Part shown: positions 21,654 to 30,819 of the stretch, piece by piece
Position numbering within the stretch: the first letter of the stretch is position 1
Layout of the letters: every line of letters starts with the position of its first letter
DNA from: Thermoplasmata archaeon
GTDB taxonomy: Archaea > Thermoplasmatota > Thermoplasmata > Thermoplasmatales > Thermoplasmataceae
Direction of reading: 5' to 3'
DNA: 41,430 nucleotides
NCBI GenBank assembly: GCA_021821635.1
Contig: JAKACH010000008.1
Coordinates: forward strand, 1-41,430
The notes under the pieces: model-generated
What the model saw: only the letters and a program-made list of their open reading frames with translations
Told to the model about the DNA's origin: nothing
Databases searched by the model: none
Program-made: the position numbers and the translations under genes

Positions 21654-21860
21654 ATGCCGCCATCTTCCAGGACTGTGCTCGATGCGTTGTCCAGGGCCAA
21701 GATTTCAACATTGAATGCTATCATTAATGAGACGGGGTTGCCATCCAGGACTGTACAGCTTGCACTGAAGAATCTTATAGCGCTCAAACTGGTGAATGTC
21801 CGGATATGCCTGAATGATACAAGAAGGAAATTTTACTGCTATTCCAGATCATCTAAGTGA
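21654..21860 (+). CDS. Small wHTH DNA-binding protein
   Basis: PPSSRTVLDALSRAKISTLNAIINETGLPSRTVQLALKNLIALKLVNV; ORF can extend to TTG 21624. Confidence 0.65.
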   Translation: MPPSSRTVLDALSRAKISTLNAIINETGLPSRTVQLALKNLIALKLVNVRICLNDTRRKFYCYSRSSK

Positions 21861-22874
21861 AAGCATTGAATTAATCGTGTCTTCAGACATTGATATTCCG
21901 ATCATTTCCAGCAATTCGGTTATGGATTCTGCACTGGAACCAGATAGAAATGAATATTGAGTCAATGATTTCATGATTACGGATTCATCAACCGCTAGCA
22001 GGCTGGAAAAATACTTCACATGCTCACTTATGGCATCGTTGATTTTTGGATTTGAAACCATTCTTTCCAGAATTGAAAGAATTTCCTGAACATCTAATGA
22101 CATTTTTTCGAGACTGGTTGATGTTGTGCCCATGCAGCAACAAGGCATGTTATCCATTGCATCTGTGAACCTGAATACTTCATGGTTGTCTGCATGGTCC
22201 CTAAGCAAGGTGGCAAAGGGTTCCCAGATTGCGATATACCTGGTCTCGCCCCGCAGAAATGCAGATAGCGCAGAAGCAGGTGATCCTGAACCTGTAACTT
22301 CGAGTTCTCCAGACATTCTCTCAAACGCTTTCGTCAGCATTGCCATAGATGAAAATTCGCTGGAAATTATTCTTCTGTTCTGGCAAGAGCGGTTTTCAAA
22401 TATGGAGGAACCACCTGTCGCTACATTGCTGATAATCCTCAGGCTTTTGTTTTCTGGATGTATTATGAATGATACAAGGGGCGAAAACCCAAAATCAAGA
22501 GTTCCTGCAAGAAGGTTCTCGAGTATATCTGCCGATCTCTGATACAATGTAACATGAAGCTTATCACCATGTTTTGTGCAGTACTCCTTGATTGCAGCCA
22601 GATGGTACAAATATTCAGCCGAAGGCAGAATCCCCACTCTGATTATCCCAGCAACACTGCCAGGATAATACTGCGGAAGCCAGACTCTGTTGCTCCTGCC
22701 TGCTTCCTTTCTAATCACGATCTCTCCATTCTCAAGCATTTCTGCCAGGATCTCAGATACCCTCGATTTTGAGAAGCCCTTCCTGGAATGGAAATCCGCC
22801 TGAAGATACCCCTCCCGTCCTCTGTTGAGGAGAATTGCTCTTACTTCGTCTTTCAAGGGCAAGGAAGGTCTCAT
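21849..22874 (-). CDS. HTH domain fused to NMT1/THI5-like (substrate-binding-protein fold) domain
   Basis: N-term wHTH (GFSKSRVSEILAEMLENGEIVIRKEAGRSNRVWLP); SBP-like IRVGILPSAEYLYHLAAI...GTLDFGFSPLVSF...AIWEPFATLL...PCCCMGT; TATA aattatacc ~27 nt before start. Confidence 0.75.
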   Translation of the reverse strand: MRPSLPLKDEVRAILLNRGREGYLQADFHSRKGFSKSRVSEILAEMLENGEIVIRKEAGRSNRVWLPQYYPGSVAGIIRVGILPSAEYLYHLAAIKEYCTKHGDKLHVTLYQRSADILENLLAGTLDFGFSPLVSFIIHPENKSLRIISNVATGGSSIFENRSCQNRRIISSEFSSMAMLTKAFERMSGELEVTGSGSPASALSAFLRGETRYIAIWEPFATLLRDHADNHEVFRFTDAMDNMPCCCMGTTSTSLEKMSLDVQEILSILERMVSNPKINDAISEHVKYFSSLLAVDESVIMKSLTQYSFLSGSSAESITELLEMIGISMSEDTINSMLSLR

Positions 22875-23101
22875 GCTCTACTATAAACGGGAACAGGTAT
22901 AATTAGTGAACTGCTTCATTAAAAAACTACTGTACAACATATAGGGATTGTATTCGCTTTTATCCCCTTACCAGGTCAGGGGTATTCCAGCTCATATAAG
23001 TCATCATGGATTTCATAATTAAAAATCATTGTCTGATTAAAGCAGGTCGGGTGATAAGTGTATCAGTTATTTATACCGAGATTCCATTACGTTTTCTTGG
23101 C

Positions 23102-26100
23102 ATGAGTACATCCACTGACTTACCTGAAACAATCACACAGCGCTTTAAGACATTCCTAAGGGAAACACCCGAGTTTTCCCTCCTGGTAATTCTTGTTCTG
23201 TCTTACCTGTTCATCGCAAATTACTTTGCATGGTCCGCAACTTTCGTCGGTGGGATGCAGAACTTTTCAGGAGGAAGTGACCCGTATTACAACTTCAAGT
23301 CCATTACATATTTCATTACAACCAAACACTGGATGGTTTACGATACATCGATTAACTATCCTGTCGGAACATTCAATCCAAGAAATCCGTTCTTCCATAT
23401 TCTGCTCGTTTACGTAGGCGTCCTTGGAAGTCCATTTTATAATATGACAACCATCACAGAGTTCTCGTTTCTAGAGTTTGATGCCGTATTTGGTGCTCTG
23501 CTGATAATTCCTGTTTATCTCATGACAAAAGAGGTATTTGGCAGGAAAGCAGGTATGCTTGGCGCTGTCCTATATACGCTTATGCCCAGCAACTTCTCTT
23601 CAGGAATCCTATCTGACGGGAGGATGCATACCCCTGAGCTTTTCTTTGCATTTTTCGTTATATATTTCTTCATCAAGGCAACAAAGTCATACAAAAAAGG
23701 CCAAATTTTTTCCTCACTGTCAATATTTCACATAAAGGCAAGGGCATCTGAAGTCAGAACATACATGCAGCGCAACAGAGTCGGGAATATCTATACCATG
23801 CTGTCCGCAGCTTCCCTGGGCGCTCTTATGCTATCCTGGCAGGGATACGCATATATTGAGGCTATCATAGCCATATATATTATTGTTCAACTTGTCTTCA
23901 ATCTTCTCATGAAGAAACCCACCGGCTATATCACCGTTCTTTCGCTACTGTTCTTCATATTGCCATTTGCCATGAGTTATTATTACTACCTTGGGGTTCA
24001 TGAAGTCTCACCGTGGTTTGTTGACGGTTTTTACATAGCTGTCCTGGCGGTAGGTTTTTCAATCATCGTCAATTTGATCGGAAGAAGACCGTGGATCATT
24101 ACAGTCCCATCGATCCTGATACTTGCGGCTGCAGGTATCTTTGCCTTTTACCTGGTTGCTCCGGCAACTCTATCAAGCATACTTGCCGGCGAGGGATACT
24201 TTATTAAAACCAGGGTATACCAGACAATAGCGGAGGCCGCAGCACCACAGCTTGGACAGTACATCTCCGGCTTTGGGATCGGACAATTCCTGCTTGGAGT
24301 TTCCGGAGTTATTCTTACTGTATATCTCTACTTCAAGAGCAAGAAGGAATACCTTCTGCTCTTCATGGTCTTTGCCATAGTGTCAATTTACATGAGTTTC
24401 GTAGCTGCGAGGTTTAACATTACTGCAGCTCCGGCATATGCCGCGATGGGAGGAGCTGTTCTCGCTCGTTTTGCAGATATGGCAGGAACGAGCAAGATCA
24501 GGCACAGGACTCCTATGGAGTCGCTGAATGTCAGGAAGTCCCTGAAGGGAAACATTTCGTTCTCCTCATTCACCGTTGTACTTGCTGTGGTCATACTTCT
24601 GATCATCCCATCAGGATTTGGCGTACTGAATGCTGCAGTTCCAGCAAACAGCGCCGGCCCTGTCAATCAGGAAATATACAATTCCATGCCGTCATTCCTG
24701 AAACCGTTGGTCAACTATTCCTCAGCGAATGATCAATTCGTGGGTACATATGGCTTTGGAATTACAAACCAGTCAACCCCGCTTAATCAGGCTTTCAAGT
24801 GGCTTTCTACACAGGATATAAATGTACCATTGATCGATCGTCCAGCATTTGTATCATGGTGGGACTACGGTTTCCAGGAAGTGGTGGAGGGGCAGCATCC
24901 AACTGTAGCCGATGACTTCCAGCAAGGTTATCAGGTAGCAGGCCAGGTTCTTCTTGCACAGAATCAAAGCCAGGTTGTCTCTCTCTTTATAGCAAGGGTT
25001 TTAGAAGGGGCCTACCTGAATAACAGTAACAACATACCATCAAACGTTTATCAGACACTCGTGAACTGCCTCGGACCTACAGGCGCTTCATTCTTGGCCG
25101 GAGACATCAAGAATCCAGGTAATTACGTTTCAATTGTTCTTAACAACCCATCCATCTATGGTAAATATATTAGCCAGCTGACTTCTGCTAATGCCCAATT
25201 TGCAGTATTCAGTGGATACTTGCCGGCTCACTATTCCATATCAGTTATTAACAATCTTTATACGCTTCTAATAGCAGAGACTGGCTATAATATAAAGTAT
25301 GTTGGCGTTGATCACAGCCTCTTTCCTGTCTCAGGATTGAACCCTGGTATATTTTATGCTCCCGAATACCTGACAGATGGTCTTTCCTACGCCTATCAGG
25401 GAGAGATAGTTCCGTACCCGTATTACCAGATATATGCAGTTACTGCAAACAAGACCTATCAGCTTAACCAGACACCTACGACGGCAATAGTTACAAACTA
25501 TCAGATAATATATAACCCGGCTTTCTACAATACATCAATTTACAGATTCACAGTTGGATATCCGCCTTCTGCAGTTGGTTCCATCGGCGGAATACCGGGT
25601 CTTACAGTCAACCAAACCACTGCGCCTGTTATGCCGGCCTGGAACATGAGTAATTTTGAACTGGTTTACGCAGGAGTTCCATGGAATCCATACAAGGATT
25701 ATCAGAATCACAGTGCAGCATGGACTGTTGTGCCCATTCAGACCGCATACAAGTATCAGAAAGAAGGTTATGGCACCACAATACTGCTGCCCACTCTGTC
25801 AAGCATCCAGGCGGAGTTTGATCCGATAGTTGCGTACTACCCCGGTGCGATAATACAGGGCAGAGTGACTACCTCCTCCGGCGCTCCTGTAGCAGGTGCC
25901 CATGTTACTCTTTTTGATCAATACGGTATACCGCATGATCTGGTCAAGACAAATTCCCAAGGTTACTACAATCTCACAGCTATCCCCGGTAACGATTCCA
26001 TTTACGTTACCACCGGTGCACTGAACCAGCAGTATCTTATAGGTTCTACGCTGCTCAACAACACCACCATAACTATTACAAATGCGCAAGCAAACAGGAA

Positions 26101-29100
26101 CGTACCAGCAGTGTCATCCGGTGGTCTCCCAGGTTATATAATATCAAAGAACTTTGTTGCTGCCTCAGGCGGTGTGAGGGGGAGTATAAATTATGTTTAC
26201 CAAGTCACAAAGAATTCCACTGAAAAAGCCGCTGTGAATAACGGCGTCCTTACTTTCACAAACACAACTTCAGGCCAGAGATACAGCGTCTCAATCACAT
26301 CAGGAAACTATTCCCTCAGCAATGTGCCGCCTGAAACTTACAACATTACGCTAACTGCAGGCAGCAATGTCTACAGGGACTTCTCGAGTGTGACGATAAG
26401 CTCCAACAATAATATAACTCAGAATCTGCCAGTGAGAATGGATACCATATATGCAGCATCTTATTCCGGCAATACTTCGTTGCACAATGTCAAGTTTGTG
26501 GCAGTTTCAAGCAATTTCAGCACATCAGCTTATTCCAATGACTCTGGTATTGCGCTTTTACAGGTTGTACCTGGCAATTACAGTGTATATGTTTCAGGTT
26601 CAGGATATACGTCTCTAGCCCAGAAGGTGGATTTCGCTTCCTGGGGGCTGAATCGTACAGTTCTTCTGGCGCCCGTACTGTCTGCAACGGTCACCGGCAA
26701 CGTTCTCAGTTCCAGCGTTCATGTGGTGAGCTTCTTTTCAAATGGAAACATATCTGATTCTTATAATGCATCTGTCGTCGGTGGAAAATTCTCGATTACA
26801 TTACCTGTCGGCTATTATACGGCATATGCCATGAATGGATTCTCGGCATATGCGCATTCCTTCTTTTTGGGCAATAATACCAGCATTTCAGTAAGCCTGT
26901 CCAGAGGGTACTACGTCAACGTATCATACTCTACCAGCGCATTCACAAATGGAACCGGCTTTTTCGAGGCTCTTTCAAATGGAATATCAATGCAGTCTGA
27001 GGGCTCACTCTCCACCTATTACAATTTCTTCCTGCCCATCGGGACATACACTTTTGCAGCATATGTAACCCACGTCGGGCTGAACTATGGATCATTCAGG
27101 ACCATAGAGGTCCTTGGTAACCTTTCGTTCACAATGCGACTTGCATTCCAGACAAACATTTCACTTACCACATACGATGCTTATCGTACAAGTTCCGGTC
27201 CAACTGCGCCACAGGTGACCGGTGGAGTGGCCATAGAATATGCCGGCAACCTTCCTATATATTATACAGGTGTATCGGCTGCTGGCGTTGCCAGTTTGAT
27301 TCATCCAAAATCCCTCGTTGACTCGTACACGTTCGATCTTTACAGCCCGGGCTTCTTTAATGCAAGCACAACGATTTCATATAACAATACGGTTGCTGCT
27401 CTCATTGTAACTCCAATACTGACGACGATCAGTCTCAATGTAAGCGTAAATTCCGGCCAGAGTGCCAGCGGCTACATTTCACTGCAGGGACAACAGTCTT
27501 ATTTGTTCCCAATAAAAAACCTGACAGCAACCGGTATTCTTACCCCAGGTCTCTATTCGGTATCGGTATTCTCTACATCCGCAGCCGTTAATTCCTCAAT
27601 AAGCGTACTGGCCGTACCAATCGGTAAATCATACAGTACAAGCACCGCGCTAAGCCAGCTCTTCTCACTTTCAAGTACTGCTTCATCCTTCTCTGTCTAC
27701 AAGAATGGCATCCAGGTTGGAAGCACATATCTTGCCTCAGGATTATATACGCTGTATTCACAGACAGGGACAAGATCAAATATTACGACCTTATATCTCA
27801 AAAGCAACACAACGATTACACCATCACTTCAGAGCAGTTCCACAGTCAATCTCTCGAATAGTCTAGGTTATACGTCGGGAACTTATTTCATCTCCTCGAA
27901 TCAGGGCATGATATCCACTTCAGGCAGCTCAATCGTATTGCCTCTTGGAACCTACAGGATAAGCTATTACTATAACTTCACAAGTAATGGAGTGGACAAA
28001 TCTGTTTCCGGCTCCGTTCTGGTTTCCACAAGCATAACCGGATCTATAAAAGTCCCTGTTTCTGTTTCTCCTGCCAGGACGACAGTCACAGGTATGACGT
28101 TCTATAACGGGATTCCTGTGCCTTATGCCGCTGTCATGTTCTACAACAGCACCGGATATCTCGTTGGGTCTGCTACTTCCAACGCCTATGGAAATTATAG
28201 TGCCCAACTCTTCGGCGGTTCATATGCGGTTTACGCAACAAGCAACGCAGACAAAGAGGCTGCACTGACGACCCTCGCTGTGACTCCATTCGGTTCCCCT
28301 GAAACGCTGAACATTACAATGGTTCCGTCATATAAGGTCTTCATTACAGAAACGAAAAGCAACATACTCCTGCAGAGAAATATATCAATTTCGTCCGGAA
28401 CCATTTTACTGCTATTCAACACCTCGGCAGGAAGCATTTACCTGCCTGGTGGAACTTATACCTTCTCCGGAAACCTTACAGTGCATGAGGCAAACTTTAC
28501 CGGTTCATCAATGAACATAACCTACAGTTCATCTGTAACACAGAGCATTGCTGCACAGAACACTTATGTGAACATCCAACTTCTCAGAGTCAACGTTTAT
28601 CAGTTCTCGTCTGGAATGCTCTCTCCTCCAAAGGTAGCCAGTCAGGGATCTAACCTTACAAACGTACCCTTCTATGTGCAGAATACCGGTAATACTTATG
28701 TTAACATGACATTCAGCTCCGGCCAATCAGGATTGATTGCTTCATTTAACCGGAGCAAGGTAATGCTGGCTCCTGGGCAGAATGTTTCTATTTCCGCAAA
28801 CCTCACACTGCCGCAAAAGATGCTGGCAGGAATAGACAAGATACAGATAAACGGCACTTATGGTACAAGTACCTACAACATCAAGCTGAGCGTAAATATC
28901 TCGGCCAGCCCATCTTTCAATGCATATCTGGTCCCAGCAAAGAACTCAATATACGGAAACACAGGCAGCATACCGGTGGTTCTTTCCAATACCGGAAATC
29001 AACTTATGACAGTTTATGTTGCCCTTGATCCCAATAACCTGAGTAATCATAACTGGGGTGGAAATATAGGTACAGGGTTATATTACAGTGCAAAGCTGCC

Positions 29101-29398
29101 TGCGTTCTCCTCGAATACCATATATGTCAATGTAACACCGATATCCGGGAAGAGTCTCTATCTCAGCGGGGATCTTACTCTGAACATAACCACCAGCACG
29201 AACTTATCAAAAACCCTCAACGTGCCAGTGAACCTCCCAAACAACATTAACATTAAACCCACTGTTTCCGGTACTGAAATAACACACTTTACAGGTGACC
29301 CTGAAATGACGATTATCATAGGTGTTGTGGTGATAGCTGCATCTGTTATTATCGGGCTTCTGGTTGCTTCATCGAGAGGGAGGCGCAGAAACAGGTGA
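23102..29398 (+). CDS. aglB: Oligosaccharyltransferase STT3/AglB with very large C-terminal extracellular repeat region and C-terminal TM anchor
   Basis: Polytopic N-terminus, GGSDPYYN loop motif, WWDYG at 24857..24871; carboxypeptidase-regulatory-like beta repeats from ~25840; terminal TM IIIGVVVIAASVIIGLLVASSRGRRRNR; ORF can extend to 23006 but MSTSTDLPE start has TATA ~30 nt upstream. Confidence 0.92.
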   Translation: MSTSTDLPETITQRFKTFLRETPEFSLLVILVLSYLFIANYFAWSATFVGGMQNFSGGSDPYYNFKSITYFITTKHWMVYDTSINYPVGTFNPRNPFFHILLVYVGVLGSPFYNMTTITEFSFLEFDAVFGALLIIPVYLMTKEVFGRKAGMLGAVLYTLMPSNFSSGILSDGRMHTPELFFAFFVIYFFIKATKSYKKGQIFSSLSIFHIKARASEVRTYMQRNRVGNIYTMLSAASLGALMLSWQGYAYIEAIIAIYIIVQLVFNLLMKKPTGYITVLSLLFFILPFAMSYYYYLGVHEVSPWFVDGFYIAVLAVGFSIIVNLIGRRPWIITVPSILILAAAGIFAFYLVAPATLSSILAGEGYFIKTRVYQTIAEAAAPQLGQYISGFGIGQFLLGVSGVILTVYLYFKSKKEYLLLFMVFAIVSIYMSFVAARFNITAAPAYAAMGGAVLARFADMAGTSKIRHRTPMESLNVRKSLKGNISFSSFTVVLAVVILLIIPSGFGVLNAAVPANSAGPVNQEIYNSMPSFLKPLVNYSSANDQFVGTYGFGITNQSTPLNQAFKWLSTQDINVPLIDRPAFVSWWDYGFQEVVEGQHPTVADDFQQGYQVAGQVLLAQNQSQVVSLFIARVLEGAYLNNSNNIPSNVYQTLVNCLGPTGASFLAGDIKNPGNYVSIVLNNPSIYGKYISQLTSANAQFAVFSGYLPAHYSISVINNLYTLLIAETGYNIKYVGVDHSLFPVSGLNPGIFYAPEYLTDGLSYAYQGEIVPYPYYQIYAVTANKTYQLNQTPTTAIVTNYQIIYNPAFYNTSIYRFTVGYPPSAVGSIGGIPGLTVNQTTAPVMPAWNMSNFELVYAGVPWNPYKDYQNHSAAWTVVPIQTAYKYQKEGYGTTILLPTLSSIQAEFDPIVAYYPGAIIQGRVTTSSGAPVAGAHVTLFDQYGIPHDLVKTNSQGYYNLTAIPGNDSIYVTTGALNQQYLIGSTLLNNTTITITNAQANRNVPAVSSGGLPGYIISKNFVAASGGVRGSINYVYQVTKNSTEKAAVNNGVLTFTNTTSGQRYSVSITSGNYSLSNVPPETYNITLTAGSNVYRDFSSVTISSNNNITQNLPVRMDTIYAASYSGNTSLHNVKFVAVSSNFSTSAYSNDSGIALLQVVPGNYSVYVSGSGYTSLAQKVDFASWGLNRTVLLAPVLSATVTGNVLSSSVHVVSFFSNGNISDSYNASVVGGKFSITLPVGYYTAYAMNGFSAYAHSFFLGNNTSISVSLSRGYYVNVSYSTSAFTNGTGFFEALSNGISMQSEGSLSTYYNFFLPIGTYTFAAYVTHVGLNYGSFRTIEVLGNLSFTMRLAFQTNISLTTYDAYRTSSGPTAPQVTGGVAIEYAGNLPIYYTGVSAAGVASLIHPKSLVDSYTFDLYSPGFFNASTTISYNNTVAALIVTPILTTISLNVSVNSGQSASGYISLQGQQSYLFPIKNLTATGILTPGLYSVSVFSTSAAVNSSISVLAVPIGKSYSTSTALSQLFSLSSTASSFSVYKNGIQVGSTYLASGLYTLYSQTGTRSNITTLYLKSNTTITPSLQSSSTVNLSNSLGYTSGTYFISSNQGMISTSGSSIVLPLGTYRISYYYNFTSNGVDKSVSGSVLVSTSITGSIKVPVSVSPARTTVTGMTFYNGIPVPYAAVMFYNSTGYLVGSATSNAYGNYSAQLFGGSYAVYATSNADKEAALTTLAVTPFGSPETLNITMVPSYKVFITETKSNILLQRNISISSGTILLLFNTSAGSIYLPGGTYTFSGNLTVHEANFTGSSMNITYSSSVTQSIAAQNTYVNIQLLRVNVYQFSSGMLSPPKVASQGSNLTNVPFYVQNTGNTYVNMTFSSGQSGLIASFNRSKVMLAPGQNVSISANLTLPQKMLAGIDKIQINGTYGTSTYNIKLSVNISASPSFNAYLVPAKNSIYGNTGSIPVVLSNTGNQLMTVYVALDPNNLSNHNWGGNIGTGLYYSAKLPAFSSNTIYVNVTPISGKSLYLSGDLTLNITTSTNLSKTLNVPVNLPNNINIKPTVSGTEITHFTGDPEMTIIIGVVVIAASVIIGLLVASSRGRRRNR

Positions 29399-30156
29399 AA
29401 GGAAAGGCAGCACTAATTGCACTGGGCATCCTGTTCATAATGATGCCCATTGCTGCAACAGTATCAGATGCGGGAACAGTCTACCCTTCAATCTTCTCAA
29501 GCACTGTGTCTTATGGGACTGTCTATGTGAACGAAAACTTTTCCATTTATGTCAACTCAACCTACGGTTTCAATAACTACACTGTGGTCCTTATATTCTC
29601 CGGGTTGAACCTGAGTGGTATGGCACCCGGAACAACGGTCCTGTCACAGAATCAGCCCAATCCGGATCTGGTGTTCAACATAACCGCACCATCTAATCCA
29701 GGGACAATATCCATTCTCGTAATGACATCAGCACATGGATCAACTATCATGCAGTACAGAACGACAGTACAGCTTACTGTTGTGAACCCTATAAAAATGC
29801 AGGCAACCATAAGCAATCCCACTCAGTATTACATGTACAACGTTACGGTGACATTCGCCATCAATGGCAACAACGTTTCAAAAATAGTGATACCGAAGCT
29901 TGCCCCATACTCGTCACAGATTGTATCAACATACTCTTCCGCCGTTTCGGTGATAAATAAAGGCGAAAACACTATCAGCGTATATGCAAGCACTCCTGGG
30001 GCTGTTGTCAGTGGCGACTCTACGTTTTATTACGGCACGCCATCCAACTATACATGGATATACTACATCGCTGCGGTTGTTGTAGCATTCATGATATTCC
30101 TCGCGGTCAGCGCCGGTCGTAGATCAATCCCAAAATCACCCAAATGGAAAAAATAA
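29395..30156 (+). CDS. Secreted membrane-anchored protein with signal peptide, beta domains and C-terminal TM
   Basis: N-term ALIALGILFIMMPIAATVS, C-term IYYIAAVVVAFMIFLAVSAGRR; GTGA overlap with aglB stop. Confidence 0.8.
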   Translation: MKGKAALIALGILFIMMPIAATVSDAGTVYPSIFSSTVSYGTVYVNENFSIYVNSTYGFNNYTVVLIFSGLNLSGMAPGTTVLSQNQPNPDLVFNITAPSNPGTISILVMTSAHGSTIMQYRTTVQLTVVNPIKMQATISNPTQYYMYNVTVTFAINGNNVSKIVIPKLAPYSSQIVSTYSSAVSVINKGENTISVYASTPGAVVSGDSTFYYGTPSNYTWIYYIAAVVVAFMIFLAVSAGRRSIPKSPKWKK

Positions 30157-30171
30157 CCTCCTAATCTATTG

Positions 30172-30819
30172 TCAGGCGGTTATTGCCTTCTGCAGGGTTA
30201 CGAATTCGAGTTCCAGTATATCCCTTCTCCTGTAGTTCTGGATCTTCGGGTCAGGGTAAGAGGTGCTGCCTCTCGCGATCCTTGCAGCCGATACGGCATT
30301 GTCATGTATCTTATGGGGTTGGCTTGTATTTGTTTCATCAACAATTTCAGGTACCATGCCTGCAGCCTTAAGCTTGAATATGATGCTGTCCCTGTTCGGT
30401 ATATCGCCATGACCTATCTTTATAGAAAACGATATGTAACGGTAGCCGGCCGCAATAGTCCTTATTGACTGGACTAGAGCTTCTATGCTGGGTACCTCAA
30501 AAGCCTCAAGCAGGACATCGTCGCCCAGAACCGCTATACCAGGCTTGGGACCAGGATCAATTCCTATTATCACTTTACTGAATTTTTCCTTGCCCAGCAG
30601 AAAGGGTATTGCCACTCGAACTGCTTCGGTTGCACTGTCTGTCCTGATCTGCTGTTCCCTGATCTTCTCGTCTTTGTTCGAACTCAGTATTATGGAGACA
30701 TCAGAAGGCAAATGATCTAAATCGTCTATTGAAACGGATTTGATTCGCCAGGATTTGAGAACATTGACAACTTCATGATAAAATCTGAAATTATGAGTGT
30801 AAATCCCGACCCTCTTCAT
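30172..30819 (-). CDS. Predicted RuvC-like RNase H-fold nuclease
   Basis: IIGIDPGPKPGIAVLG strand motif, VDETNTS, HDNAVSAARIA acidic positions. Confidence 0.65.
   Translation of the reverse strand: MKRVGIYTHNFRFYHEVVNVLKSWRIKSVSIDDLDHLPSDVSIILSSNKDEKIREQQIRTDSATEAVRVAIPFLLGKEKFSKVIIGIDPGPKPGIAVLGDDVLLEAFEVPSIEALVQSIRTIAAGYRYISFSIKIGHGDIPNRDSIIFKLKAAGMVPEIVDETNTSQPHKIHDNAVSAARIARGSTSYPDPKIQNYRRRDILELEFVTLQKAITA

Follow-up and report, generated by a model that had tools for sequence, protein, structure and literature searches.

Archaeal oligosaccharyltransferases (OSTs), the AglB proteins, have been described as single-subunit enzymes (PMC8342417), and in one study that compared their lengths they span 754 to 1054 amino acids (aa) (PMC5131992, Table 3). 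Extra beta units are found on AglB-L, and a stabilizing role has been suggested for them (PMC3703281). Here, we analyzed a 41430-nucleotide stretch of DNA (the window; contig JAKACH010000008.1) from a member of the order Thermoplasmatales, class Thermoplasmata, in which an aglB gene for a giant protein of 2098 aa is followed by a small companion gene. A preliminary description of this DNA had proposed a giant OST with a beta-domain stalk and its own C-terminal anchor, and had stated that known AglB proteins are mostly under 1000 aa, which fits the published range. From its sequence, the protein is predicted to be the oligosaccharyltransferase of this organism, in a form that is general to the class.

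The giant aglB gene is one uninterrupted open reading frame (ORF) on the forward strand, running to 29398 from either 23006 or an in-frame ATG at 23102 and encoding 2130 or 2098 aa, respectively; the ATG at 23102 is more likely the start than that at 23006, and orthologues are of equal length. Its product consists, in order, of an STT3/AglB membrane domain, a WWDYG domain, about 1165 aa of beta-sandwich domains, a terminal transmembrane (TM) helix and a basic tail. The polytopic STT3 domain (residues 1 to 520; 23102 to 24661) is marked by conserved alignment positions and by a match to the archaeal STT3 model TIGR04154 (residues 59 to 543 of the 2130-aa ORF, 151.6 bits). This score is below the curated cutoff of 450 bits for that model, which describes archaeosortase A-associated AglB, and none of 350 class genomes exceeds it. 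A whole-genome search with PF02516 (STT3 polytopic domain) gave 42.6 bits against a cutoff of 24.5. In the catalytic ectodomain (residues 521 to 900; 24662 to 25801), the WWDYG motif (residues 586 to 590; 24857 to 24871) is invariant in 63 of 63 aligned sequences. The Asp60 of external loop 1 (EL1; GGSD) and the TIAE of EL5 (375 to 378) are kept in 62 of these 63, the remaining row being gapped. At the position of the EL2 acidic motif we found SDGRMHTPE (residues 171 to 179; 23612 to 23638), with a GRxHTPE pattern in 46 of the 63 sequences and DHD-type motifs elsewhere in the class; its D, H, and E residues are present but shifted relative to the DxD-type motif of Archaeoglobus fulgidus AglB-L. 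This is the sole STT3 gene detected in the source genome, which is about 80% complete.

The stalk (residues 901 to 2065; 25802 to 29296) comprises approximately 12 to 13 tandem beta-sandwich domains, of TTR/CarboxypepD_reg-like type and, toward the end, NEW3/CARDB-like. CarboxypepD_reg (PF13620) matched four stretches (E = 4.9e-21). An AlphaFold2 model of the last 1198 aa, whose input included 58 homologous stalks, is a chain of beta-sandwich domains with a terminal TM helix (mean pLDDT, 83.7; pTM, 0.51), in which the domains are confident and their overall arrangement is not. The C-terminal TM helix (residues 2071 to 2089; 29312 to 29368), seen both in hydropathy and in the model, precedes a basic SSRGRRRNR tail and is retained in 61 of 63 aligned sequences. 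Both the stalk and the anchor of the preliminary description were thus borne out. Mean pair identity ranges from about 0.32 to 0.55 over the enzyme part and is 0.52 (residues 901 to 975) for the first stalk domain (residues 916 to 1000; 25847 to 26101), which is the best conserved of the stalk domains and as well conserved as the catalytic domain. Later in the stalk, identity falls to about 0.21 to 0.31 (about 0.24 for most), while column occupancy does not drop below about 0.9, so domain number, and not sequence, is what is conserved. At the two ends of the stalk (about 480 profile positions at the start and about 420 at the end), similarity can be recognized throughout the class and in several further families of the phylum, with variation in the middle; in loci L145 and L158, only traces of profile similarity are left. 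Acidiplasma-type genomes (L106, L107, and L110, the last being Acidiplasma aeolicum) have lost more than half of the stalk: the 541 to 555 aa that remain keep the first three to four domains, the last domain and the TM helix, and the companion gene is also kept. We searched the source genome for a second copy of the stalk and found none, and rejected a duplication elsewhere in that genome. At two other loci of the phylum, L150 and L160, the giant AglB ends in PGF-CTERM-like tails (IPGFEAF.../MPGFEAL...), a likeness which suggests that in certain lineages the end of the stalk is processed by an archaeosortase.

The giant form was found throughout the order, with matches in 109 of 117 genomes and 31 of 33 genera. 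Nearly all frames in the order are 2033 to 2134 aa long, save copies that are broken or cut by a contig end and the short Acidiplasma-type form. Since similar lengths recur across the order, in single-contig genomes as well, the giant frame is not an assembly artifact. When we surveyed AglB lengths across the class, as the preliminary description had suggested, 335 of 350 genomes matched, with frames of about 2030 up to about 2430 aa throughout; the genomes are partly drafts. In the wider phylum, frames of 2300 to 3250 aa are common, and several families have a short AglB of 930 to 1430 aa, which in the forms examined lacks the C-terminal anchor. L145 and L157 belong to more distant relatives, with AglB frames of about 3200 aa, and there the gene after aglB resembles, on inspection by eye, one for a subtilisin-type protease. 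A giant AglB is also encoded by cultured archaea, as in Ferroplasma acidarmanus Fer1 (L134, 2062 aa) and Aciduliprofundum sp. ARK-15 (L127, 2082 aa), and by methanogen genomes, and there is one aglB copy per genome. The architecture is therefore restricted neither to this genome nor to lineages without a wall, being general in the order and class and wide in the phylum, methanogens and Aciduliprofundum included. By the criterion of the preliminary description, it is standard in the order. A literature search, outside which most subscription journals lay, found no description or characterization of a giant AglB and nothing on a Thermoplasmata OST companion or on loss of N-glycosylation in Methanomethylophilaceae.

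The companion gene (29395 to 30156, forward strand; 253 aa) begins with a GTG that lies inside the aglB stop (GTGA), so that it overlaps the aglB TGA by 4 bp. Among 64 loci with both genes, 56 have an overlap of exactly 4 bp, two overlap by 1 bp and five have the genes 4 to 6 bp apart. Judged from this arrangement, aglB and the companion are translationally coupled. Loci L069 to L143 have the coupled companion downstream of a giant aglB. We found the companion in 195 of 201 whole class genomes, representing 77 of 77 genera. A comparison of coordinates among the matches listed showed it immediately after aglB in 108 of 113 genomes, with the two genes on different contigs in the other five. Beyond the class, matches that are nearly full length are confined to one family (f39), where they likewise adjoin aglB; other matches in the phylum are mostly limited to the CARDB stretch of long proteins. 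The companion protein comprises a signal peptide, a pair of beta-sandwich domains of which the second is CARDB-like (a CARDB-type domain was matched in 51 of 57 members), a C-terminal TM helix and a basic tail. An AlphaFold2 model (pLDDT, 88) likewise has two beta-sandwiches and a TM helix (residues 220 to 240; 30052 to 30114). In the cytosolic tail motif PKWKK (30139 to 30153), mean pair identity of the P-K-W columns is 0.96, compared to 0.30 for the ectodomain, a difference that points to a cytosolic partner. We regard the companion as a candidate OST subunit. The companion and the last stalk domain could be aligned over 57 columns (92% probability), consistent with a shared Ig-like fold, and we considered this too little to claim a duplication.

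Evidence on what the added parts do comes from a family of mcrA-bearing methanogens (f11) that we infer, as we do all family identities beyond the named loci, to be the Methanomethylophilaceae. There, the aglB homologue is 1831 to 2029 aa long and is followed by the companion, in which the tail is again far better conserved than the ectodomain (0.91 versus 0.36). In 20 of 22 genomes sampled (loci L165 to L182, L185, and L186), WWDYG is degenerate, as are EL2 and TIxE where the frame is complete; in the truncated copy at L167, only the WWDYG position can be read. Most of them also lack the EL1 Asp; the copies at L177, L181, and L182 still read GGSDA there. Two genomes of one genus (g84) retain the catalytic motifs. 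The motif-less proteins form a single clade (support, 100/100), which amounts to one change on the tree. A TIGR04154 search of the motif-less genomes identified one gene in each, at this locus, as the sole STT3-like gene, and a few marginal extra matches. With its degenerate motifs, the protein is a candidate pseudo-oligosaccharyltransferase. Because stalk and companion were kept after the catalytic motifs were lost, they are expected to have a role that is independent of catalysis.

This family also provided a reference for the sequons. The window stalk contains 50 N-x-S/T sequons, exactly the approximate number that had been counted by eye, compared to 26.0 ± 4.3 in shuffled sequences, and it has no N-P-S/T. 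Across the 63 aligned stalks, the mean is 51.9 sequons versus 24.1 expected, with N-P-S/T depleted (0.37 versus 0.98). The catalytic ectodomain of the window protein has 10 sequons versus 4.5 expected. Most sequon positions are unconserved, the exceptions being N621 in the catalytic ectodomain (63 of 63) and N964 in the first stalk domain (97%). As a control for local composition, we used the ratio of N-x-S/T to the reversed motif S/T-x-N. In the order, this ratio is 1.90 for stalks, 2.66 for catalytic ectodomains, and 2.61 for companions (1.47 for the window stalk alone), compared to 0.79 for cytosolic proteins of the window; in the motif-less family it is 1.17, 0.69, and 1.30, respectively. 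A Mann-Whitney test gave 1.3e-6, a value that overstates the difference because the sequences are related and the loss is one evolutionary event. The sequon excess on stalk and companion is selection-like. Since it accompanies an intact enzyme and is nearly gone in the motif-less lineage, sequons of the stalk act like genuine glycan acceptors wherever the enzyme is intact. Together with the depletion of N-P-S/T, this makes it probable that the giant AglB glycosylates its own stalk, as had been suggested for the window protein.

The best explanation of these data, to which we give an even chance, is that the giant AglB and its companion form a scaffold at the site of secretion, with an ectodomain that is glycosylated by the enzyme itself and anchored twice. 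AglB is fused to a long ectodomain with membrane anchors at both ends and would be cotranslated with a single-pass companion. The enzyme would move lipid-linked glycans onto secreted proteins, its own stalk and the companion, resulting in a glycan-coated arch above the active site. Stalk and companion may act as a single complex, by which polypeptides are held or screened as they exit the secretion channel, and the basic tail of the companion may dock on a cytosolic partner, with the ribosome or SecYEG as first candidates. By analogy, such a scaffold would combine the roles of eukaryotic OST accessory subunits with those of NOMO/TRAP-type lumenal translocon proteins. We propose that its job, being independent of catalysis, let it outlive catalysis in the motif-less family. 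The broader claim, that the two-subunit OST of Thermoplasmata is primarily a secretion-site scaffold, an archaeal equivalent of NOMO/TRAP/OST-accessory functions assembled on STT3, with glycosyl transfer dispensable and a pseudo-OST in one methanogen family, is tentative.

Several points weigh against the scaffold. We infer the physical complex of AglB and companion from sequence, and its location at the translocon from topology and the conserved tail. The motif loss is a single evolutionary event, and giant AglBs elsewhere in the phylum (L145 and L157) have no adjoining companion. The best Foldseek matches of the stalk model are generic proteins with beta-sandwiches in tandem (ciliary Ig proteins, alpha-2-macroglobulins, and complement), and their TM-scores are low, at about 0.1. 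No TRAP Pfam family was found for 57 companions among the 25 families listed of 40 (E ≤ 0.1), and the top 50 Foldseek matches of the companion contain no TRAP; the companion gives generic Ig-like matches with low TM-scores, including WxLIP and transglutaminases. With such generic matches, kinship with NOMO or TRAP is unsupported at the fold level. The divergence and sequon richness of the stalk would also suit a surface coat, the reading of the preliminary description. The stalk with its glycans would then be a structural part of the envelope, an S-layer substitute for which the enzyme is the anchor, and the companion would be a further coat element. A coat would fit Cuniculiplasma, which has AglB and no visible S-layer (PMC5155288), and the motif-less family could have retained the stalk for this purpose; the presence of the Picrophilus STT3 protein PTO0786 among 30 secretome proteins (PMC8345856) fits coat and scaffold equally. 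However, there is one gene copy per genome, the form also occurs in Aciduliprofundum and methanogens, Acidiplasma-type genomes have dispensed with more than half of the stalk, and the conserved cytosolic tail of the companion is left unexplained. Moreover, a protein anchored in the membrane at both ends should fold back rather than project freely. We therefore consider a coat doubtful; a wall role is possible and less supported than the scaffold.

It is improbable that the stalk has no role of its own and merely shields or stabilizes the active ectodomain, as has been proposed of the peripheral P1/P2 units in thermophilic AglBs. The first stalk domain, conserved like the catalytic domain, would fit such a shield, as would the extra beta units of AglB-L (PMC3703281), but the motif-less family keeps stalk and companion with no active site to protect, and the giant form is present in methanogen families believed, from their presumed habitat, to be largely mesophilic. 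A catalysis-independent role would be needless if the motif-less proteins still transferred glycans by means of catalytic residues that are unusual or have moved elsewhere. They keep the polytopic domain and still match TIGR04154, and activated mannose for N-glycans has been predicted in Methanomassiliicoccales (PMC4153887), but four motifs were lost together and the sequon bias falls toward the reverse-motif control in ectodomain, stalk, and companion, so we judge continued activity quite unlikely. Finally, the C-terminal part might be expressed separately, via an internal start or cleavage, with the fusion existing only in annotation. In a few assemblies (L111 and L142), stalk and catalytic part do indeed lie in separate ORFs, and at L084 aglB is divided in the same way as in a genome of the window's own genus (G110). 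These three loci have overlapping frames typical of sequencing frameshifts, which they probably are, whereas a single frame of constant length recurs in dozens of genomes, single-contig ones included. Separate expression, which the preliminary description had named as an alternative, is thus highly improbable.

Two neighbors of the pair lie on the reverse strand. The gene at 30172 to 30819 encodes a 215-aa protein without a Pfam match, in which the stretch GIDPGPKPGIAVLGDD resembles RNase H/RuvC-type nucleases. The 341-aa product of 21849 to 22874, with an N-terminal winged-helix-like part (DUF7343) and an apparent substrate-binding-protein domain, looks like a regulator of unusual architecture.

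Compared to known systems, an entire class and a large part of its phylum have an OST of 2000 to 3200 aa, unlike the characterized single-subunit archaeal enzymes of about 750 to 1050 aa. AglB-Long proteins (A. fulgidus, 3waj/5gmy; Pyrococcus furiosus) share with the giant AglB the STT3 fold, EL1 Asp, TIxE, and WWDYG, and some of them have extra beta units (IS, P1, and P2) on this core; with their published length of 754 to 1054 aa, they differ from the giant form in its ~1165-aa stalk, C-terminal anchor, and coupled companion. Because this coupled partner is nearly universal in the class, the idea of a multisubunit archaeal OST can be put to a direct test. The motif-less methanogen family serves as a natural experiment, which indicates that what was added to the enzyme does something of its own and supplies a background (NxS/T versus S/TxN) for judging real sequons. 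Archaeal S-layer glycoproteins also combine a long beta ectodomain, rich in sequons, and a C-terminal anchor, and the giant AglB is unlike them in its single gene copy, polytopic N terminus, and fusion to an OST. TRAP (SSR) and OST accessory subunits resemble the companion in having a signal peptide, an outside beta-sandwich, a C-terminal TM helix, and a conserved basic cytosolic tail, and we counted the coupling of the companion to the OST gene as a further likeness; identity with TRAP alpha/beta was rejected on the Pfam and Foldseek results. If the scaffold does stand at the translocon, it would bear on the origin of OST accessory and lumenal translocon proteins. NOMO, of the BOS complex in the multipass translocon of the endoplasmic reticulum, is, like the stalk, a chain of tandem TTR-like beta domains; it has a C-terminal TM helix and differs in not being fused to an OST. 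The best sequence match of the stalk profile in the PDB is NOMO2 (9c7v; E = 1.3e-13), a match that is short, not colinear, and at the level of the CarboxypepD_reg superfamily, and some stalks match the NOMO_5th/3rd and EMC7 models. NOMO is absent from the top 50 Foldseek matches of the stalk model, and as the profile match is also not colinear, we did not retain orthology. As an analogy, NOMO is the closest architectural counterpart of the giant AglB stalk.

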